Assembly (NCBI RefSeq): GCF_900111015.1
Contig: NZ_FOFS01000010.1
Coordinates: 124,001 to 188,000, forward strand
Length of the DNA stretch: 64,000 bases
Source of the DNA: Solimonas aquatica
GTDB lineage: Bacteria; Pseudomonadota; Gammaproteobacteria; Nevskiales; Nevskiaceae
Reading direction: 5' to 3'
The notes under the pieces are model-generated. The model saw nothing but the letters and a program-made list of their open reading frames with translations. It was not told the DNA's origin and did no database searches. The position numbers and the translations under genes are program-made. This document shows, one piece after another, positions 1 to 57,401 of the stretch. How positions within the stretch are numbered: the first letter of the stretch is position 1; each line of letters starts with the position of its first letter.

Positions 1-505
1 TGGTGGACAGGCAGAGCTTGATGTCCGGCGCCTGTTCCTGCAGCAACTGGAACGTCTTGAAGGTCTTGGCCGGATTGGCCAGCGCATCGCCAGGGCCGGC
101 GATGCCCAGCACCGTCATCTGCGGAATCGCGCTGGCCACCGCCAACACCTTCTTCACCGCCTGCTCGGGCGTGAGCTTCTGCGAGACCACGCCGGGGCGC
201 GACTCATTGCTGCAGTCGTACTTGCGATTGCAGTAATTGCACTGGATGTTGCAGGCCGGCGCCACCGCCACATGCATGCGCGCGTAATGGTGATGCGCTT
301 CCTCGGAATAGCAGGGATGGTTCTTGACCTTCTCCCAGATATGCGCCGGCATATCGTCCGGACCCGCCGCCGAACCGCAACTGGATTTTCCGGAGCCACC
401 GCTGCTGGAGCAGCCACTGCTGCTGGGCTCGCTCTGTGCACGGCCGCTCTTGAGCAGCGAGTCCAGCGAGATGTAGGTGGACGAACTCTTGGCACTGGCA
501 GACAT
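1..505 (-). CDS. nifB: NifB, FeMo-cofactor biosynthesis radical SAM protein (N-terminal part; C-terminus beyond the left edge)
   Basis: NifB builds NifB-co, the 8Fe-9S-carbide precursor of FeMo-co, from [4Fe-4S] clusters by radical SAM chemistry. The visible 168 residues start [10 protein letters not shown], pass through a Ser/Gly/Cys-rich leader, and reach the radical SAM motif C-x3-C-x2-C at Cys85/Cys89/Cys92 inside [14 protein letters not shown]. The following [12 protein letters not shown] stretch and the GPGDALAN segment are typical of NifB. The ATG at 505 has an AGGGGA ribosome site a few bases upstream, and the start lies about 45 nt below a sigma-54 promoter. The 3' part, including any NifX-like domain, is outside the window. 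Identification is secure. Confidence 0.96.
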
Positions 506-560
506 CGGCACAATCCCCTGGCTTGATTCCGGCCGTCTCGCGGCCCTTCAGGGCTTGCTT

Positions 561-8475: not shown

Positions 8476-8629
8476 GGGCGTTCGACGTTTTGCGAGCTTC
8501 GCTCGCAATGCAAATCTGACGATCACCTGCGCTGCCATCCATGGCGGGACATCACTTCTCGATTGACCCCCGGCCACGCCATCCATGGCGTGGCGTTCGA
8601 CGTTTTGCGAGCTTCGCTCGCAAAACGTC
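8476..8629 (-). repeat. Composite palindromic element abutting the fixX stop codon
   Basis: Read on the minus strand from the fixX TGA (8632-8630): a 14-bp-arm hairpin with a GAA loop (8629-8599), the link CGAACGCC, a 10-bp-arm palindrome around CATGGATG (8594-8573), then about 28 nt including GGGGGTCAATCG, then a second GCCATGGATGGC palindrome (8545-8534). A truncated copy of the hairpin and CGAACGCCCGGC follows (to about 8476). The same layout is found after the OmpA-like gene (56704 downward) and in the 3' end of nifE (22191 downward). Confidence 0.8.
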
Positions 8630-8923
8630 TCACCCAAACTTGAACAGAATTCCGTGTCCGCCGCGCGGATATTCCCACTGCACATTGTCCGTGCAGATGA
8701 TGCGGCAGCTGCCGCATTCCAGGCAGCCGTCGGTGATCAGCGTCACCGCGCCATTGCCTTCGGCCTTGTAGCAGGAGGCCGGGCAGACGAAGGTGCAGGC
8801 CTGCGACTTGCACTCGGTCTGGCAGTGCTGCGGGTTCTTGATCTGGATGTGCGGCCGGCCGTGATCGACGCGGTAGCGGTTCTGATAAAGCTTTTCTTCG
8901 ACATTGACGACAGGCGCGTTCAT
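8630..8923 (-). CDS. fixX: FixX, ferredoxin-like subunit of the FixABCX complex
   Basis: 97 residues. FixX is the Fe-S subunit passing electrons out of the bifurcating FixABCX complex. Seen: a Cys-rich segment (HCQTECKSQACTFVCPASC) and a [4Fe-4S] motif CLECGSCRIIC, then TDNVQWEYPRGGHGILFKFG, matching the ETF-QO ferredoxin domain. The ATG overlaps the fixC stop by 4 nt. A composite palindromic element begins directly at its stop codon. Confidence 0.95.
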   Translation of the reverse strand: MNAPVVNVEEKLYQNRYRVDHGRPHIQIKNPQHCQTECKSQACTFVCPASCYKAEGNGAVTLITDGCLECGSCRIICTDNVQWEYPRGGHGILFKFG

Positions 8924-15984: not shown

Positions 15985-16640
15985 AGGGCGGCTTAGGCGC
16001 GATAGCGCCGTAACCCGCCAGGGCTTTTCTGCAGCCCGGTTTATCTCTTGATCTATTGCCTCGTTCGTCCGCCCTTCGGCGGACGACTCACTTCTCTTTG
16101 CTTGTGCAAAGAGAAGTAAGCAAGAGAAAGCACACCCCGGCTCTGGCGCCCGCTGCGCGGGTGCCTTCGCTGTGCAACGTGCTCGGGGCCGTTGCGGACA
16201 CGCCATCCCTGGCGTGGCCGCAACTGAGCCGCCCTTCGTGGGCGGCTCTCCCCTGCGCTCGCCGCACAGCTCAGCGCCAGAGACGGGGACCCCAAAGTCA
16301 AAAGCCACAGCAGCTTCGAGCGATGAGCGTCGCTGCGCTGTTGCTTTTGACTTGCCCCCTTTGCCTCGCACCGAGCAGCGCAGCGAGCGCAGTGGGAGAA
16401 TCGAACAGGAAGTTCGATTCAGTTGCAGCCGCGCCATGGATGGCGCGTCTGCAACGGCCCCGAGCACGCGAGCAGCGCAGGGTTCCGGCGCCGCGATAGC
16501 GGCGCCGGATGCGAGGCGTAGGGCGTGCTTTCTCTTGGGTACTTCTCTTTGCACGAGCAAAGAGAAGTACCTCGGGCGCCGAAGGGCGCACGAAACCAAG
16601 GCCAGATCGAGCACCACACGCAGCAAGAAGCAACAAAGCC
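15985..16640. repeat. Long mosaic inverted repeat, copy B (inverted relative to copy A)
   Basis: Same module order as copy A but on the opposite strand. The perfect 15-bp-arm hairpin is at 16538-16571 (loop ACGA), GCCATGGATGGC near 16434, a GAATCGAACAGGAAGTTCGATTC hairpin-type block near 16397, the centre, GAGCCGCC...GGCGGCTC near 16226-16250, GCCATCCCTGGC near 16203, and an imperfect TTTGC...GCAAA hairpin near 16090-16120. It fills most of the gene-free stretch 15818-16695; the flanks 15818-15984 and 16641-16695 show nothing recognisable. The two copies enclose about 13.8 kb. Confidence 0.88.
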
Positions 16641-20127: not shown

Positions 20128-20533
20128 GGGCCACCTCGTCTTCCTCGAAGCTGGCCTTCTGTTCCTGACCCTTGAGCAGGGCCTTGCGCAGCCAGGGCGG
20201 CGGCGTGCCTTTCAGCACGTCCTGCAGCTTGAGCAGAATCTCGGCGATGGACTCGGGCTGCGGCACCTTGATCGGATGAATCTTCTGCGCCACCACGCGC
20301 GCCGCCGCCGAACCGCCAATGGCCGCGCAATACATGATCGCGCAGTCGCCGATGGCGGCGAGCTTGGGCGTGAGCTTGTCCTCGTTGCCGTCCTCGTTGA
20401 GTTCGCCGGCGAAGTCGAAGGATTCGACGAAGCGCGAGCCTTCGGCGCTCACCTCGTAGACGGCGATGTGCTTGGCCCAGCCGAAGTGGGCATTGACCAG
20501 TTCCTGGTCCTGCGTGGAAAACGCAACTTTCAT
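20120..20533 (-). CDS. nifX: NifX, FeMo-co/NifB-co carrier
   Basis: 137 residues, dinitrogenase iron-molybdenum cofactor-binding fold. N-terminus [28 protein letters not shown] and [28 protein letters not shown] are characteristic. NifX holds NifB-co and VK-cluster intermediates passing to NifEN. ATGA overlap with nifN indicates coupled translation. Confidence 0.95.
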
Positions 20534-21915
20534 GATGAAACCTCTGCGTGGGATTCGGGGCTGACGCTGGCCGCGCGCCGTGATGCTTCCGGCAGCGGCC
20601 AGCTCTCGGGCGTGGCCTGATGCGTCTGATCGGCGAGCAGGTTGGCGATGTCGAAAATCAGATTGCGCGTGCCGCGATAGCCGACACTGAGCCGGTGCGC
20701 ATTGCCGATGCGGTCGAACAGCGGCATGCCGATGCGATACAAGGGCAGGCCCAGGCGTTCGGCCATCTGCCGGCCGTGCGAGTGCGTGAGCAGCAGCTCG
20801 CAGCCGCGCTCGGCGGCGAGTCTTTCCATGTCTTCCAGATCGCCGATCAGCACTTCCTCGCAGGGCAGCTGCTGCAGCAGCATGGACTGCGTGGTGGTGA
20901 CGCAGACCGCGAGCTGCGCGCCCATTTCCTGCAGCAGCGAGCCCACGGCCCAGAGCAGATCCGGCTCGGCACCGATGGCCAGCTTCACCTGCCCGAAATG
21001 GAAATGGCCGTCGAGCATGGCGTCGAGCAGCTGGCTGCGGCTGCGCCGGTACTTGGCCGGCACCGGGCGACCGGAGAGCTGCGAGAGATGCTGCAGGAAG
21101 CGGTCATTGGGCAGCAGGCCGGTGAGGCGATCGAACACTTCAAAGGGCACGCCGCAGCGCATCTCCAGCTCCATCGCCGCCGAGCGCATCTGCTCGCCCA
21201 CCGCGATGCTGGCCATGGCACTGCCGAGATTCTGCAGGTCTTCCAGCGCGGTGCCGCCGATGGTGGTGCCCAGCCATTCCTCGGGGATGTGCCCGTCCAG
21301 CGAGCCGGACATGTCCGGCGCCACCACCACTTCCAGACCGAAGCTCTCGATGATCTCGCGCAGCTCGTCGATATCGGCCGGCGTCAGATGCGAACCAGGC
21401 AGCAGATTGACGCGCCCGTCCACCTTGGCCACCTGCTCGCGCGCCAGGCTGCGCACCAGCGCACTCACCGCCTTGCTCCAGCCGTCCTCGAAGGCACCGA
21501 TGTAATCCGGCGTGGACACGTAGACCAGCTCGGTATCGGCCAGCTCCGGATGACGCTGACGGATCAGGCGCAGATAGCCGTCCACATCATCGCCCTTGGT
21601 TTCGGTGAGGCCCGTGGAGCAGATCGCAATCAGCTTCGGCGCGGCACGCTTGCGGATGTTGAGCAGGGCCGATTCCAGATTCTCCAGCCCGCCGAGAATG
21701 GTGGTGACCTCGTTCATCGCCGAGGTCTGCAGGGGGATGGCTTCCTTGAAGTGCCGCACCAGCAGCACCAGTCCGAACGAGGTGCAGCCCTGCGAGCCAT
21801 GCATCAGCGGCATGCACTGCGCCAGGCCCATGAAGGCATAGGCCGCGCCCAGGGGCTGGCTCATCTTCAGCGGATTGACCGCGCAGGCCTTGCGGGATTC
21901 GATGACGCGGGCCAT
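20530..21915 (-). CDS. nifN: NifN, beta-type subunit of the NifEN FeMo-co scaffold
   Basis: 461 residues, related to NifK. Together with NifE it forms the scaffold on which NifB-co matures to FeMo-co. Cys44 in HGSQGCTSFG corresponds to the [4Fe-4S] ligand known in NifN. FDRLTGLLPNDRFLQHLSQLSGRPVPAKYRRSRSQLLDAMLDGHF is strongly conserved. The ATG lies only 8 nt beyond the extended nifE stop. Confidence 0.96.
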   Translation of the reverse strand: MARVIESRKACAVNPLKMSQPLGAAYAFMGLAQCMPLMHGSQGCTSFGLVLLVRHFKEAIPLQTSAMNEVTTILGGLENLESALLNIRKRAAPKLIAICSTGLTETKGDDVDGYLRLIRQRHPELADTELVYVSTPDYIGAFEDGWSKAVSALVRSLAREQVAKVDGRVNLLPGSHLTPADIDELREIIESFGLEVVVAPDMSGSLDGHIPEEWLGTTIGGTALEDLQNLGSAMASIAVGEQMRSAAMELEMRCGVPFEVFDRLTGLLPNDRFLQHLSQLSGRPVPAKYRRSRSQLLDAMLDGHFHFGQVKLAIGAEPDLLWAVGSLLQEMGAQLAVCVTTTQSMLLQQLPCEEVLIGDLEDMERLAAERGCELLLTHSHGRQMAERLGLPLYRIGMPLFDRIGNAHRLSVGYRGTRNLIFDIANLLADQTHQATPESWPLPEASRRAASVSPESHAEVSS

Positions 21916-21923
21916 GGGCGGAC

Positions 21924-23573
21924 TCAGAGTTGGGCGCCGGCAAGCAGGGTCATGGCCTGCGTCTGCGCGCGTTCGGACTTTGGGACTGAGACCTCTTCCG
22001 CCATCCTTGGCGAGACCGCATCGCTTGATTGAACCCCGGCCCGGCCATCCCTGGCCGGGCGTTCGGATTCGCTGCCTAAAACTTCTTCCGCCATCCGTGG
22101 CGAGACTGCATCGCTTGATTGAACCACGGCCCGGCCATCCCTGGCCGGGCGTTCGGATTCGCTGCGCGCTGCGCGCGCAAAGCGCGAATCCTCACCCCAG
22201 GGCGCCGGTGTTCTCACCTGCAGCCACACCGGGTTGTACACGGCCTTGTCGATCTCGTTGACCAGACTCACCATGCCTTCGTAACCGGCATAGGCGTAGT
22301 GGCGTTCCTGATTGATGTCCAGCCAGGGCATGCGCGCCTTGAGCGCCACGAACTGCGAGCGACCGCCGGAGAGCATGATGTCGGCGCGCGCCTCGCGCAG
22401 CATCTTGTACATCTCGCGCGGGGTCATGTCGTCGATCATGTGCGCGTCGTCGCCCATGATCTCCTTGATGCGCGCCTTGTCCTCCCTGGTGGATTTCTTG
22501 ACGCTGGTGCCGGCGACGATCATGCCGGCCTCCTGCAGCGCGGACACCACCGACCAGCTCTTCACGCCGCCGGTGATCAGCAGCACGCGCTTGCCGGACA
22601 GGCGCTGGCGATAGGCCTGGATGCGCTGCCAGGCGCGCGCTTCCTCGACGCGGATCAGCTTCTCGGTGCGGATCAGCAAGTCCTCGCCCGCGCCCTGCTG
22701 CACCAGCAGCCGCGCCATCTGGCGCAGGGTGTCGGACATATCGCTGATGCCGTAGAAGGAGCCTTCGAAATACGGAATGCCGTAGCGCTCCTGCATGCGC
22801 GTGGCGACATTGATCATGCTCTTGGAGCAGACCATCATGTTCACGCGCGCGCGATGGCTGCTGGCCACGTCGCGATAGCGACCGTCGCCGGAGATGCAGG
22901 AGAGAATGCGGATGCCCAGGGCATCGAGCAGCGGCTTGACCTGCCAGAGTTCGCCGGAGAGGTTGTACTCGCCGATGATGTTGATGTCGCAGGGCGTGGT
23001 GGTTTCCGGCTCCTGCGTGCCGATCACGTAATCCAGCAGCGCCTCGGCGCCGAGCTTGTTGCCCAGGTTCTTCGGTCCTGCGAAGCCCGGCGCGTTGACC
23101 GGTATCACGGGTTTGCCGAAACGCTCCGTGGCGCGCTTGCACACCGCCTCGATGTCGTCGCCGATCATCGCGGTGACGCAGGTCTGGTAGACGAACACCG
23201 CCGGCGGATCGTATTTCTCGATGGCTTCGCGGATCGCCTTGAACAGGCGCTTCTCGCCGCCGTACACCACATCGAGTTCGTTGATGTCGGTGGTGAAGCC
23301 GGTGCGGTAGATCATCGGCCCCGAGGACGCGCTGTGGCGGTTGTCCCAGGAGTTGCCTTCACAGGCGATGGGGCCGTGCACCAGATGCACGACGTCGACG
23401 ATGGGCTGCAGCGCGATCTTGGCGCCGTCGAAAGCGCAGCCGCCGGCGGCCGCACCGGGCGTGAGCTGCTTGCTGCACCCCTTCTTGCGGTCCTTCTCCG
23501 ACTTCGCCTGGTTCTTCTCGCAACCGGGCTCTTCGAATACCGCGGCGATCTTCTGCTTGAGCGTGGCCGACAT
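21924..23573 (-). CDS. nifE: NifE, alpha-type subunit of the NifEN scaffold, with an extra repeat-derived C-terminal tail
   Basis: 549 residues as read, against about 470 for typical NifE. The core is complete: cluster ligands Cys46, Cys71 and Cys132, plus [24 protein letters not shown] and the C-terminal [21 protein letters not shown]. It normally ends soon after a PAPW-type motif (here near residue 458). Instead the frame continues for about 90 residues, including two 30-residue copies of [12 protein letters not shown]...VSPRMAEEV encoded by 90-bp DNA repeats. A TGA at 22192-22194 lies one base out of frame at the point of departure, next to a run of four G. Either the tail is real or a single-base change has bypassed the ancestral stop. 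Confidence 0.93.
21994..22199 (-). repeat. Two 90-bp palindromic repeat units at the 3' end of nifE
   Basis: Period is exactly 90 bp: TCTTCCGCCATCC at 21994 and again at 22084; the GCCCGGCC...GGCCGGGC palindromes are at 22039-22060 and 22129-22150. Read on the minus strand each unit has CGAACGCCCGGCC, a palindrome, GGGGTTCAATC or a one-base variant, and a second CGCCA..GGATGGCG palindrome, the same order as the elements after fixX and the OmpA-like gene. The first unit is preceded by an 8-bp-arm hairpin (22055-22062 repeated as 22145-adjacent GGATTCGC; arms 22155-22162 and 22184-22191) starting at the out-of-frame TGA. Confidence 0.8.
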
Positions 23574-56607: not shown

Positions 56608-56704
56608 CGCCATGCCTGGCGCAACAGCAGTTGCTACCGGATCGCCCTGCCCGGCCATCCATGGCCGGGCGTTCGGAAGATGGCGACCTTCGGTCGCCAT
56701 CTTC
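56608..56704 (-). repeat. Composite palindromic element abutting the stop of the OmpA-like gene
   Basis: Minus-strand order from the stop (56708-56706): 13-bp-arm hairpin with GAA loop (56704-56676), CGAACGCC link, 10-bp-arm palindrome around CATGGATG (56670-56649), about 27 nt, then a weaker CGCCA...TGGCG palindrome (56621-56608). This is the same order and spacing as the element at the fixX stop, with a different sequence in the first hairpin's arms. Confidence 0.8.
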
Positions 56705-56705
56705 C

Positions 56706-57401
56706 TCACCCGCCCAGATAAGGCGGCGGCGCCCAGGCCTGCTGCTCGTTGCCCTGCACCACCGGCTTGATCACGATGTCGACGCGACGGTTGCGCGGCT
56801 CCTTGACGTTGTCGCCGGTGCGGACCAGGGGTTCGCGTTCACCGCGACCTTCGGTGCGCATGCGCTGCGTGGGCACGCCCTGGCTCGCCATGTAGCTGGC
56901 CACCGAGGCAGCACGATTCTGCGACAGCGTCAGGTTGTACTCATCACTGCCGCTGGTGTCGGTGTGACCCACCACATGAATCACGGTCTGGTCGTAATTC
57001 TTCAGGATGGCGGCAATCTTGCCGTAGGTATCCAGCGCCGCCGGCTTGAGCTGGGCGCTGCCCAGATCAAAGCTGACGTCGGCGGCGATACCCACCTTCA
57101 GCGAACCATCGGACAGGCGCGTGATCTGCAGCTCGTTGTTGCGCTGCTCTTCGGCCAGCTGCTGATTCAGCTCGGCCTGCTGCTTGTCCATGTAGTTGCC
57201 GACCGTGCCGCCCGCCAGACCGCCGATGATGGCACCGACGATGGGCGCGCCGCGCGCGCCGCTGACCTGATGACCCAGCACGCCGCCGGCGATGGCACCA
57301 ATCACGGCGCCGGTCTTGGCGCGGGCATTGGGATCATCGGTGGCACAGGCGCTCAGGGCCGCGATACTCACCGACACGATGAGAGGACGGATCAACTTCA
57401 T
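56706..57401 (-). CDS. OmpA-family lipoprotein with glycine-zipper domain
   Basis: 231 residues. Lipoprotein signal peptide with lipobox LSAC (Cys19), a Gly-rich zipper (AVIGAIAGGVLGHQV...PIVGAIIGGLAGGTVGNYMD), and a C-terminal OmpA peptidoglycan-binding domain (VVGHTDTSGSDEYNLTLSQNRAASV). YiaD-type outer membrane lipoprotein. ATG at 57401 overlaps the rnr stop by 4 nt and has AGGA upstream. Confidence 0.93.
   Translation of the reverse strand: MKLIRPLIVSVSIAALSACATDDPNARAKTGAVIGAIAGGVLGHQVSGARGAPIVGAIIGGLAGGTVGNYMDKQQAELNQQLAEEQRNNELQITRLSDGSLKVGIAADVSFDLGSAQLKPAALDTYGKIAAILKNYDQTVIHVVGHTDTSGSDEYNLTLSQNRAASVASYMASQGVPTQRMRTEGRGEREPLVRTGDNVKEPRNRRVDIVIKPVVQGNEQQAWAPPPYLGG

Follow-up and report, generated by a model that had tools for sequence, protein, structure and literature searches.

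The nifE reading frame of Solimonas aquatica ends in a tail that was, very probably, created by in-frame insertion of a dispersed palindromic repeat. The gene lies in a 64,000-nt stretch of contig NZ_FOFS01000010.1 (positions 124,001 to 188,000; here called the window), and the features concerned are collected in Table 1. The profile model TIGR01283 covers residues 6–459 of the predicted NifE protein and ends at the W of PAPW; past PAPW, the nifE frame remains open for 90 codons. The initial annotation described two units of exactly 90 bp in this extension, a stop 8 nt ahead of nifN, and a TGA one base out of frame after GGGG, and all three descriptions agree with the sequence. The units run through the open frame and are 86% identical, and the TGA (22192–22194, minus strand) follows four G (22195–22198) in the context TGG-GGT-GAG, which reads W-G-E in the nifE frame. 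The length of the open frame is nothing special, the same phase being open for at least 85 codons in 6 of 17 other copies of the repeat in this genome.

Table 1. Positions, in the window, of nifE, its neighbor nifN, and the repeat parts
Feature	Position	Strand	Remarks
nifE	21924–23573	−	549 codons including the repeat-derived tail
Repeat-derived tail of NifE	residues about 461–535		
Left edge GGGTGAG	22191–22197	−	contains the out-of-frame TGA; edge common to 131 of 137 copies
H1, variable hairpin GGATTCGC...GCGAATCC	22155–22191	−	covariation across copies
First 90-nt unit in reading order	22056–22145	−	
H2 core of first unit, GCCAGGGATGGC	22134–22145	−	
H3 core of first unit, GCCACGGATGGC	22090–22101	−	
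Second 90-nt unit	21966–22055	−	
H2 core of second unit	22044–22055	−	
H3 core of second unit, GCCAAGGATGGC	22000–22011	−	
Last 14 codons of nifE	21927–21968	−	probable native NifE end
nifN	20530–21915	−	starts 8 nt after the nifE stop
Repeat copy on the stop codon of a fixX-like gene	8530–8635	−	locus L145; TGA 8630–8632
Repeat copy, left edge on the stop of an OmpA-like gene	56650–56711	−	locus L147; TGA 56706–56708

The out-of-frame TGA had been taken for the likely, missed stop of NifE, a view that the 3' ends of nifE in relatives do not support. Among the best 80 of 271 nifE loci in named genomes, the motif ..QVR..APW was found in 71; the nine loci without a motif match were left out of the comparison. 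All 71 read past APW in the nifE frame, for 3 to 60 residues (median, 27), none ending directly there, and the commonest residues next after APW are G-D-D. Most have no out-of-frame TGA; 13 of the 71 write TGG GGT GAN, that is, they share the out-of-frame GGGTGA in the absence of any insert. Programmed frameshifting at the G run, giving two NifE forms of which one ends at the TGA, would fit the G run and the stable hairpin directly downstream of it. However, the relatives with an out-of-frame GGGTGA carry on in frame into tails of their own with no hairpin repeat, and none of the 71 ends at the same point, as a conserved alternative product would; we regard such frameshifting as very improbable.

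Within the genus, the nifE of genome G005 (locus L010) ends ..APWDGDTPEALLA and has no repeat; the alignment of L011, from a record titled Nevskiales bacterium STE_114, is identical to that of L010. Same-genus record aside, the best nifE matches listed (window 20530–23573) are mostly betaproteobacterial, and nifE was detected at E ≤ 1e-100 in only 2 of the 61 relatives searched, S. aquatica included, which suggests that the nif genes were acquired.

The tail sequence belongs to a repeat family. BLAST with the nifE 3' stretch gave 28 matches in the S. aquatica genome (4.43 Mb, 31 contigs), and the core GCCANGGATGGC occurs there 132 times, compared with no occurrence in a reversed control; these dispersed copies rule out a chance tandem repeat in nifE. 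The core is present in other repeat types of the genome as well, and among the 100 of 132 core places listed, −/+ core pairs about 230–245 nt apart recur. Comparison of 60 stretches gave the nifE-type layout, in which GGGTGAG and hairpin H1 are followed by CGAACGCCCGGCCANGGATGGCCGGGC (H2) and, across a linker, by another core (H3). The left part, searched for by a pattern that leaves the third G free, was found in 21 of 37 genomes of the family, including that of S. aquatica, compared with 0 of 24 genomes from other families of the order, and in 8 of 271 genomes of other orders in a class sample; controls gave 0 in both searches. From 139 matches we examined 137 copies; of the other two, one lay too close to the end of its contig, and one was a nested match or an exact duplicate. 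The base left free in the pattern is G in 131 of the 137, and a loose H3 motif is present in 115, in 104 of these at one spacing within 3 nt. In S. aquatica itself, a search for H1 that allowed bulged stems found 18 copies. We did not find this family described so far: a search of the full-text literature, in which the sequence itself was not queried and which is therefore weak evidence of absence, returned no description of it.

H1 occurs as 131 distinct sequences, with stems that differ between copies and yet pair. Pairs 1–7 are Watson-Crick in 94 to 126 of the 131, compared with means of 40 to 65 when partners were re-dealt, and all four pair types are used; pairs 8–10 have little or no excess of pairing. 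We did not count the outermost pair or the first-core GGA, both being set by the search pattern. Because the copies are related, some through one shared insertion, the shuffle and binomial figures are not strict probabilities.

Two further elements were noticed. The repeat GACCTGAAAAACGCCANGGATGGCGTTTTTCAGC is present at L124, L129, L136, L140, L161, and other loci, in many cases where two genes converge; it has the same loop and resembles a bidirectional terminator. At L127:2034, L138:2016, L157:1962, and L165:1996, a second hairpin such as GTACAGGATGTAC lies within tens of bases past the core; hairpins of this type are close to the selected CsrA site RUACARGGAUGU.

A clear sense-coding frame lies upstream of 84 of the 137 copies; the upstream gene is antisense in 10, and 43 are unclear. 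The TGA at the repeat edge is the in-frame stop of the upstream gene in 65 of the 84, the GGT-GAG phase of nifE is used in 15 (nifE included), and the GTG-AG phase in 4. Since the TGA is in frame in so many copies, nifE belongs to a minority class. The initial annotation was correct that the same kind of hairpin starts on the TGA of two other genes, fixX and the OmpA-like gene. Judged by sequence comparison, the TGA is the native stop where this was tested: NusG, SerC, NuoK, and GlyS profiles reach to within at most 2 residues of it, and repeat-free orthologues end at the same place for serC in 9 of 11 genus genomes and for ppc at 2 of 5 loci. Among nine nusG loci shown, four have a canonical copy, one has GGGTGAG but no repeat, and another two appear to have variant or decayed copies. 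With a simple gene caller, the flanking genes were both sense for 72 copies, convergent for 30, both antisense for 17, and divergent for 1; seven copies lay within a called ORF, all sense, and 10 had no called gene on at least one side.

The same counts bear on a different history, in which insertion was originally in the stop phase (APW-GGG-TGA) and the loss of one G later opened the frame into the repeat. A TGA in frame in 65 of 84 copies would agree with it, as would nifE being one G short of the stop phase, but GGT-GAG is the phase of 14 other copies, of which six lie inside proteins, and relatives read past the same point in the nifE frame. A lost G is, in our judgment, quite unlikely.

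The copies in the GGT-GAG phase are read as protein. Six lie inside a protein, where they encode a peptide like GE..(F).., and nine, including that of nifE, form a new C terminus of 4 to 90 residues. The in-protein copies, five of which are in one genome (G031), are found in PurT of genome G003, an E2 acyltransferase (between the lipoyl and E3-binding domains), an AcrB-family protein, RlmJ, a TPR protein, and a protein with no Pfam match. In the repeat-bearing PurT, residues 1–228 and 266–384 align with E. coli PurT, and the insert is absent at this site in 6 of 10 other genus genomes (in the remaining 4, the site was not found by motif). Among predicted proteins, then, NifE is not alone in carrying the repeat in frame. 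Because the repeat is translated in this phase inside other proteins, we treat nifE as a case of in-frame insertion. An error of sequencing or assembly, in the G run or in the number of repeats, is extremely improbable: some copies do lie at contig ends, so that repeats may break assembly, but the nifE frame agrees with how relatives are read, and other genomes have copies in this phase too. Four explanations had been put forward initially. With 71 relatives reading on and 14 other copies in the GGT-GAG phase, the real repeat-derived tail, as in Rickettsia, is the one retained, and an indel, programmed frameshifting, and a sequencing error are not needed.

According to the insertion reading, a copy of the repeat would have entered the variable C-terminal tail of nifE via its GGGTGAG edge, and the inner part of the inserted copy would now be present twice, as the 90-nt units. 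An insertion that keeps the nifE phase GGT-GAG has the repeat read as GEDSRF... up to the stop before nifN. The TGA "one base out" would then be the repeat edge read in another phase, with no stop lost. The final 14 codons of nifE are probably the native NifE C terminus: by eye they resemble TPEALLA, the end of the same-genus NifE, and G or C occupies the third position of 12 of 14 codons in the nifE frame, compared with 10 of 13 and 6 of 13 codons in the two alternative frames. We infer that the repeat-derived tail is made and tolerated. An AlphaFold model of NifE from 20 sequences had a mean pLDDT of 57.4, with residues 462–549 below 50; much of the core also fell below 50, so the model allows no judgment of the tail and is not used as evidence.

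The recurrent left junction of the repeat is GG joined to GTGAG. Sequence to the left of the junction recurs to the right of the repeat (score ≥12) in 21 of 136 copies, compared with 1 of 402 controls, over 18 to 145 nt. Some of these duplications include repeat sequence itself, and part of them are therefore tandem duplications. By eye, the duplicated flanks are mostly gene starts and 5' parts of tRNA genes, with an intact gene downstream; two of the duplicated protein starts are, we presume, those of mutL and mtnC. Three further tRNA cases, outside the family, were found via Rfam. Seven copies stand head to tail next to a tRNA gene at L347:1500–2480; a truncated 5' part of the tRNA lies ahead of six of the seven, and the intact tRNA follows downstream. 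Repeats with duplicated gene starts are also seen at L223, L243, L256, and L277 and at L128, L278, and L311; by eye, these loci represent just two genes, one ddl-like and one mtnC-like, across several genomes. Three observations count against an insertion in nifE: its minority phase, the lack of the full GGGTGAG at nifE in all 71 relatives, and the lack of a target duplication (none found; best score, 7). The Y1 transposase PF01797 had no match at E ≤ 0.001 in the S. aquatica genome (98.4% complete), the one genome searched, which argues against a RAYT-driven REP.

On the transcribed strand, hairpins of the nifE tail carry four ANGGAN hexaloops; for other copies, the search pattern itself required GGA in the first core. 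The loop bound by RsmE is described as an ANGGAN hexaloop (PMC7652899), and the hairpins, whose loops fit it, are candidate CsrA/RsmE targets. The genome has one CsrA gene, and the nifE stretch folds somewhat more stably than shuffled sequences (z −2.3). What speaks against a purely CsrA-related role is that 17 copies lie antisense to the genes on both sides and that the GC-rich 8-bp stems are longer than those of most selected CsrA ligands. No known RNA family scored above its cut-off for the nifE repeat in Rfam (best, RsmW, 22.7 of 52 bits, E 0.08), and 18 further loci gave no match to clan CL00106 at E ≤ 0.5. Rfam TwoAYGGAY is described as predicted to bind CsrA (PMC4333381). Other window repeats with the same core match this family (RF01731), and two inverted pairs of such matches lie at 1704–2008 and 16185–16461.

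The anomaly at nifE becomes one case of a repeat family that is both a hairpin element behind stops and a source of in-frame enzyme peptides. Two questions become testable through its edge on stop codons, the compensation seen in H1, and the variable duplications: how such repeats move without a recognized transposase, and whether many operons are linked to CsrA by dispersed GGA hairpins. A more far-reaching picture, which we consider rather unlikely, is that of a mobile RNA-level cassette of Gammaproteobacteria. It would dock on stops via GGGTGAG and place three hairpins on the sense strand after the gene, one covarying and two of the CsrA type with GGA; its spread, perhaps via an RNA or single-strand intermediate, could leave long, variable target duplications, and it would become protein where phase allows, as in NifE.

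Several known systems resemble the repeat in part. Like it, the Rfam family RF01731 and the Rsm/Csr clan CL00106 are described as hairpins with A-N-GGA loops, but the nifE repeat stays below their cut-offs, whereas other window repeats do match RF01731. GTAG- and CGTC-tagged REPs, as described in PMC3733652, share with it a hairpin next to a tagged end, the supply of stop codons by their ends, and intragenic copies, the latter coding for 20–82 amino acids. In contrast to these, the nifE-type tag is GGGTGAG in 131 of 137 copies (left edge compared), the repeat is larger, with three hairpins and an H1 stem varying between copies, and, unlike for GTAG REPs with RAYT, no Y1_Tnp was found in the S. 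aquatica genome. The palindromic elements of Rickettsia (PMC2229807) are described as short dispersed palindromes, both intergenic and in frame in conserved genes. Dispersed hairpin copies and in-frame copies in conserved genes are found here too, a likeness in these described features. The nifE-type repeat differs from the Rickettsia elements in its GGGTGAG edge, its A-N-GGA-N loops, and its docking on the stop codon in most copies with a sense gene upstream.
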